Positions 50,395 through 50,577 of a stretch of 64,000 nucleotides of DNA are shown here, in pieces; position 1 is the stretch's first letter; each line of letters starts with the position of its first letter. Made by a program: the position numbers and the translations under genes. The DNA is from Lacticaseibacillus suibinensis (GTDB taxonomy: Bacteria > Bacillota > Bacilli > Lactobacillales > Lactobacillaceae). The notes beneath the pieces were generated by a model that was given only the letters and a program-made list of their open reading frames with translations, was not told the DNA's origin and made no database searches. The stretch is from contig NZ_RHOK01000005.1 in NCBI RefSeq assembly GCF_003946175.1, positions 1-64,000 of the forward strand, in the 5' to 3' direction.

Positions 50395-50577
50395 GTCGCG
50401 CTACGTGCTATCCTCAAGCTAGGGAATCCGCTTTTCTCGTGATCGAAATTTACGATGGATGTTCCACGCAGCGATGCGTTAAAAGAAAATCTTGGGTTGT
50501 TCGTTTTCGTAGTTGGTTGCGGATTCCCGCCGCGGACCACGTGGTGAGGCTCGGTGTGAACCGAGCCTTTTTGCGTG
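50395..50577 (+). ncRNA. Candidate structured RNA, possibly 6S RNA (ssrS)
   Basis: The spacer between queA and tgt has, on the plus strand, AGUCGCGCUACGUG (50396-50409) that pairs with CACGUGGUGAGGCU (50538-50551). It uses three G-U pairs that would be A-C mismatches on the other strand. Inside lies a perfect 10-bp stem, GGGAAUCCGC (50422-50431) with GCGGAUUCCC (50519-50528), and further small hairpins. It starts AAAGUC as Bacillus 6S-1 does, and ends in a terminator. The stem-bubble-stem form and length of about 180 nt resemble 6S RNA, but I cannot run the Rfam model. Confidence 0.5.
50548..50572 (+). terminator. Terminator on the plus strand of the queA-tgt spacer
   Basis: GGCTCGG, loop TGTGAA and CCGAGCC are followed by TTTTT. 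No plus-strand protein gene is upstream, so it ends the candidate RNA. Confidence 0.8.

Follow-up and report, generated by a model that had tools for sequence, protein, structure and literature searches.

The stretch of DNA analysed here (64,000 nucleotides, hereafter the window) belongs to a Lacticaseibacillus genome of 2.56 Mb, in which it is part of contig C45. It carries 360 bases between the start codon of tgt (ATG, 50363) and the stop codon of queA (50724), two genes of the minus strand whose names follow the initial annotation of the locus. Does this spacer encode an RNA of its own on the opposite strand, and is that RNA 6S RNA, as the initial annotation had surmised? Judged from its sequence and that of its relatives, the plus strand between the two genes very probably encodes a small RNA about 152 nt long (Table 1), which is classed here as a new family within a common type of RNA, that of intergenic small RNAs.

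Table 1 Features of the queA-tgt locus, in positions of the window
Feature	Position	Strand	Sequence or basis
Small RNA gene (very probable)	50421–50572	+	ends deduced from the −10 box (5′) and the terminator (3′)
Promoter-like element	50385–50414	+	−35 TTGCAA (50385–50390); 18-nt spacer; extended −10 TGC-TATCCT
Extended −10	TG 50406–50407; hexamer TATCCT 50409–50414	+	read from sequence
Closing helix P1, 5′ strand	50422–50431	+	GGGAATCCGC; pairing kept, letters rewritten in relatives
Closing helix P1, 3′ strand	50519–50528	+	GCGGATTCCC; perfect 10 bp, encloses 87 nt
Junction with conserved GTGATCG (50439–50445) and short hairpin P2	50439–50465	+	alignment
Hairpin P3	50467–50478	+	CGCA, loop GCGA (GNRA type), UGCG; nine aligned sequences
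Conserved A-rich strand after P3	50479–50491	+	UUAAAAGAAAAUC; candidate contact strand (putative role)
Self-complementary element between P1 and terminator	50536–50545	+	ACCACGTGGT; comparison of 11 loci
Intrinsic terminator	50548–50572	+	GGCTCGGT-GTGA-ACCGAGCC, then TTTTT; fold; stem 50548–50567, U-tract 50568–50572
tgt (presumed tRNA-guanine transglycosylase)	49221–50363	−	ATG 50363–50361; transcribed away from the RNA
queA (presumed S-adenosylmethionine:tRNA ribosyltransferase-isomerase)	50724–51758	−	faces the terminator of the RNA

Probable promoter, terminator and ends of the RNA

We infer that the RNA is transcribed and that it starts and ends as given in Table 1. A simple pattern scan of the window listed neither its promoter nor its terminator; the two were recognised by inspecting the sequence and comparing it with relatives, and the case for both therefore rests on the relatives. 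The −10 box of the window is weak, its hexamer lying 7 nt 5′ of the closing helix. Inspected by eye in 11 loci (the window included), a −10-like box (e.g. TGTTAAAAT, TGTTATAGT, CTATAAT and GTATAAT) ends 5–8 nt before the closing helix, and a terminator-like hairpin with a U-tract occurs at the same place and on the same strand in 11/11, so that by position and conservation the locus has the own promoter and the intrinsic terminator expected of an intergenic small RNA gene. The plus-strand terminator without a recognised protein gene before it, from which the initial annotation had started, is confirmed. That annotation had also proposed an outer pairing of 50396–50409 with 50538–50551, which forms on paper (duplex −13.8 kcal/mol) and probably not in the transcript. 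Its 5′ arm overlaps the promoter-like element, which probably moves the start of the RNA from 50395 to near 50421 and reduces its length from 183 nt to about 152 nt. The AAAGUC formerly taken as the RNA start precedes the −10 box, and the formerly estimated length of about 180 nt is likewise replaced by the value deduced from the −10 box and the terminator.

Conserved helices and rewritten sequences

The perfect 10-bp stem described earlier was verified letter by letter and constitutes the closing helix P1. In six lineages, the P1 sequences are unrelated and the pairing is kept (GGGAATCC, GGACGGGA, AAGGACCC, GGAAGGGG, GGCGGATC and TAGCAGGG). All eight compared pairs (8/8) are altered on both sides, and 71 of the 72 P1 cells are paired; the pairing, whose loss in related species would by the initial annotation have counted against its proposal, is conserved in P1. 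Over all cells of the covariation test, 99.1% are paired. The covariation score exceeds those of 500/500 shuffles and of every slid version, one of the five covariation measures (further pair types) being reached by 58/500 shuffles; the P1 registers were chosen by hand in this test, and the control is therefore not independent. In 10 of the 11 loci, no more than 6 of 1000 dinucleotide-shuffled sequences gave a helix as long as P1. The exception is L. camelliae, in which one A–C mismatch breaks the helix and 401/1000 shuffles did as well. With the reservation of the hand-chosen registers, the locus has the conserved structure with compensatory change expected of a small RNA gene.

Hairpin P3 forms 4/4 pairs in 9/9 sequences, three of the pairs being invariant and one two-sided change occurring in locus L031 (CGCG/CGCG). 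Its loop is GCGA, GUGA or GGGA in seven of the nine sequences and is not of the GNRA type in L034 and L031. P3 and the A-rich strand form the best conserved stretch of the RNA, positions 50460–50489 being identical (30/30) in five relatives. Hairpin P2, formed by AUCG (50442–50445) and CGAU (50453–50456), was judged by eye and is less certain. The inner folds vary among lineages, the stretch spanned by P1 measuring 107 to 148 nt. The self-complementary ACCACGTGGT is also present in three camelliae-type loci, its core CCACGTGG in L034 and L031, and it is absent from the remaining five loci of the 11; whole or as the core, it is kept in three of six lineages. This element could be a site for dimerisation or for a protein.

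Folding energies were compared for both strands. The plus-strand fold of 50391–50577 beats its shuffles (z −3.38; 1/200 shuffles as good), and the minus strand of the window folds equally well (z −4.16). Over seven loci, the RNA strand has z values between −1.96 and −5.49 and the opposite strand, which is the better one in 3/7, between −0.88 and −5.45; the strand is therefore unreadable from folding energy. The initial annotation had read the strand from the pairing, which stands insofar as four G–U cells in P1 fit the plus strand only and fails insofar as the opposite strand folds as well. These G–U pairs and the orientation of the −10 box and terminator (11/11 loci, by eye) make the plus strand the likely one. 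The same two observations count against a DNA-level element or a minus-strand operon-leader remnant in place of a separate gene, a reading to which the better-than-shuffled fold of the minus strand would lend itself and which we hold to be very improbable.

Selection and coding potential

Among the five paracasei-like loci, the RNA is 97.3–100% identical from helix end to helix end in 10/10 pairs. For the seven distant pairs, the corresponding values are 80.7–82.3% for queA, 49.4–52.4% for its third codon positions and 19–63% for the flanking intergenic DNA; for the three close pairs, the third positions of queA are 76.2–83.4% identical. In the camelliae-type clade, the RNA is 92.7–97.6% identical compared to 57.6–68.9% for the third positions of queA, with an upstream flank that is also high (85.7–91.4%). 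Two pairs, L001/L002 and L011/L012, differ too little to be informative on selection. These comparisons support the view that the RNA is under purifying selection in the relatives.

A small peptide was considered and rejected: no clear Shine-Dalgarno site was seen by eye, and no frame is common to all lineages. In three of six lineages (the window and the paracasei-like and yichunensis/mingshuiensis loci), an open frame that includes a start codon spans the core, and the camelliae-type, L034/L031 and brantae loci have no such core frame with an ATG, GTG or TTG start. Across the six lineages there is hence no conserved coding frame, as expected of a small RNA gene. Altogether, comparison supports the gene, its structure, the selection on it and its likely strand, and the independent structured plus-strand RNA of the initial annotation is upheld by the position of promoter and terminator, the compensatory changes and the purifying selection.

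Distribution in Lacticaseibacillus

A BLASTN search with the intergenic region as query gave matches in 11 further genomes of the genus (E < 0.002), each match lying between queA and tgt, and reading the queA side where BLASTN had missed added three more (G002, G003 and G024). The RNA gene is thus present in 15 of 30 Lacticaseibacillus genomes, in 14 of the 15 demonstrably between queA and tgt. In the remaining genome, G024, the arrangement towards queA is unchanged, and the 1376 bases in the direction of tgt gave no tgt match; by eye, this sequence of at least 1376 bases (locus L031, 290–1665) appears transposase-like. In G003 (locus L041), about 1 kb of extra, by eye coding-like sequence lies between the RNA and queA. 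The nearest relative by the RNA locus is G025.

A core covariance model (R1; 60-nt core, built from nine sequences) matched the same 15/30 genomes with at least 55.9 bits, the next best match scoring 25.4 bits, a gap which indicates one RNA copy per genome. A repeat or mobile element was rejected on account of this single copy. In a sample of the family, R1 matched 14 of 397 genomes, all from one of 40 genera; no match was obtained outside Lacticaseibacillus in this search, run with stricter filters under which weak matches can be lost. The core pattern was found in nine Lacticaseibacillus species, namely L. suilingensis, L. zeae, L. chiayiensis, L. jixianensis, L. hegangensis, L. camelliae, L. 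mingshuiensis, L. brantae and L. yichunensis. Two further hits, in one Roseburia and one Bacillales MAG, were at loci without a queA or tgt match and were set aside, since about two chance hits are expected by our own estimate.

The RNA is absent from 8 of the 23 queA-bearing genomes and is therefore dispensable on an evolutionary time scale. On a queA tree of these 23 genomes, which leaves out the seven genomes without a queA match and whose midpoint root is drawn for display, presence and absence require four changes (at least two by the starred branches). Presence falls on both sides of the midpoint root, and the RNA is therefore likely to be old in the genus and to have been lost several times.

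Relation to 6S RNA

Like 6S RNA (ssrS, RF00013), the queA-tgt RNA is intergenic, roughly 150–190 nt long and held by a closing helix. As 6S RNA or a second copy of it, it would mimic an open promoter, bind RNA polymerase and template product RNAs. Its length is plausible for this role, and lowest-energy folds of single sequences are rod-like with bulges in the window and rod-like in L004 and L005; those of the paracasei-like loci, in contrast, are branched. The search with RF00013 proposed by the initial annotation was carried out and gave no match within the window at the gathering threshold (46.4 bits) and, at E ≤ 10, none at the locus (50200–50800) or in the whole genome. A scan of the locus with Rfam gave no family at its gathering threshold either; four matches far below threshold at E ≤ 10, the best being istR with 21 of 45 bits, were taken as chance hits driven by the terminator.

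Within the genus, RF00013 has full-length matches in 10 of 30 genomes, all below the cut-off (23.8–41.2 bits). Three of these genomes (G004, G008 and G010) hold both the queA-tgt RNA and such a separate sub-threshold match beside a rarA homologue. The genome of the window (G000) has a corresponding terminator-ended, 6S-like stretch downstream of its rarA homologue (contig C5, approximately 25836–26061; L054, 2115–2340), which is 78–79% identical to the RF00013 candidates of G004, G008 and G010. RF00013 itself does not report this gene at E ≤ 10 in the genome, so that it is assigned to 6S by its location and similarity. The queA-tgt RNA shares only 15–36% identity with the six 6S-like genes to which it was aligned.

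According to the part of a survey of lactic acid bacteria considered here, 6S RNA is encoded by a single gene, which almost all species carry downstream of rarA (PMC8414754). A second copy between queA and tgt would be at odds with this, and the position departs from the usual placement on the rarA/uspA side, a placement that is not a strict test in this genus, as 7 of the 10 RF00013 candidates have no rarA match within 1.5 kb. With another sequence, no family match and a 6S-like gene elsewhere beside a rarA homologue, the queA-tgt RNA is hardly credible as 6S RNA. The former 6S call is thereby corrected, and a 6S-like gene missed by the Rfam model is pointed out in this genome. The seven genomes whose 6S candidates have no nearby rarA (G009, G015, G016, G022, G023, G026 and G029) have no queA match either and form a divergent subgroup.

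Possible functions

Our favoured reading, held with somewhat better than even confidence, is an independent plus-strand non-coding RNA gene with its own promoter and terminator, specific to Lacticaseibacillus as far as searched and most likely acting in trans. The RNA would be made from a promoter of its own within the queA-tgt spacer and stop at the intrinsic terminator. Its long closing helix would hold a compact fold displaying the small hairpin and the conserved A-rich single strand, which may meet a partner in trans, either an mRNA or an RNA-binding protein; the closing helix and the terminator would keep the RNA stable. Such a partner and its effect are what we infer from the single copy and the high conservation of a seemingly unpaired strand, both of which fit a trans role. 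The complement of the A-rich strand (GATTTTCTTTTAA, up to one mismatch) has 71 sites in eight genomes versus 45 for the reversed control, an excess found mainly in G017 (17 versus 4), G006 (17 versus 11) and G003 (8 versus 2); two of the 71 sites are the RNA's own complement, and these counts, taken at the level of sites, show no target.

Control of tgt in cis is conceivable as well, either by pairing with a read-through queA-tgt mRNA or by transcription interference. The RNA is oriented against queA and tgt, its start being 58 nt away from the tgt ATG, no convincing tgt promoter was seen by eye in the 57-nt gap of the window, and the RNA-less genomes G014, G011 and G018 have an operon-like arrangement with less than 20 nt between queA and tgt. 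A queA mRNA that reads through into tgt would contain the full complement of the RNA. However, perfect antisense pairing needs no conservation of specific letters, which is observed here, the P1 sequence changes while its pairing persists, and the start of the helix is separated from that of tgt by a variable distance (56 to 237 nt over 14 loci). Antisense control is hence regarded as improbable.

The GNRA hairpin and the A-rich strand may instead form a protein-binding site, the RNA titrating or guiding the bound protein as a sponge or scaffold. The best conserved block, a short hairpin with its flanking letters, is common to lineages with rewritten closing helices, and within a clade the RNA hardly changes over nearly its whole length, both in agreement with a protein ligand; the lack of a GNRA loop in L034 and L031 speaks against it. 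We consider this reading doubtful. A wider role may be considered as well, that of a global regulator or a ribonucleoprotein core of Lacticaseibacillus with a co-evolving partner, for a genus-specific RNA that is 97–99% identical within a clade (third positions of queA approximately 50%) and whose helices are wholly rewritten between clades. Its constraint is comparable to that of 6S RNA (in three genomes, 93–98% for the RNA versus 95–99.5% for their 6S candidates). This wider role is tentative and, in our judgement, rather unlikely.

Relation to described small RNAs

The portion of the literature covered here names no queA-tgt RNA in Lactobacillus. For L. casei/paracasei BL23, the text of the study considered here lists 307 putative small RNAs (the sLCB set), 86 of which are intergenic and most of the 307 without an Rfam family (PMC8220740). 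The queA-tgt RNA resembles this set in genus, intergenic location and lack of an Rfam family; the main text of that study, as distinct from its supplementary coordinate tables, does not contain queA or tgt (PMC8220740). It is quite possible that the queA-tgt RNA has already been detected in the BL23 set. One member, sLCB761-, was weighed as possibly the same RNA from its distance to tmRNA. In L. casei Zhang, 208 candidate small RNAs including rli28c have been described, in a paper whose main text likewise contains neither queA nor tgt (PMC8249650). The rli28 of this strain comes from the same species group, is plasmid-borne and, in its printed sequence, looks different by eye (PMC8249650). As far as the sources considered here extend, the queA-tgt RNA adds a well supported candidate in a food and probiotic genus in which few small RNAs have a known role, together with its likely ends and conserved elements.

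Further elements in the window

The sequence GTTGCGCTCCAGGNGGCC (up to one mismatch) occurs at 50601–50618 of the window and at nine further sites of the genome, as a dispersed repeat of intergenic type. There are 10 sites in G000 and eight in G025 (none for the reversed control), and in both genomes the repeat follows the RNA gene within the queA-tgt spacer. A match to the T-box leader was obtained at 37119–37292 on the minus strand (39.3 bits versus a gathering threshold of 93; E 3e-7 on a short stretch). It lies upstream of an open reading frame (34440–37145) that we take to be alaS-like and is probably a true, divergent T-box.
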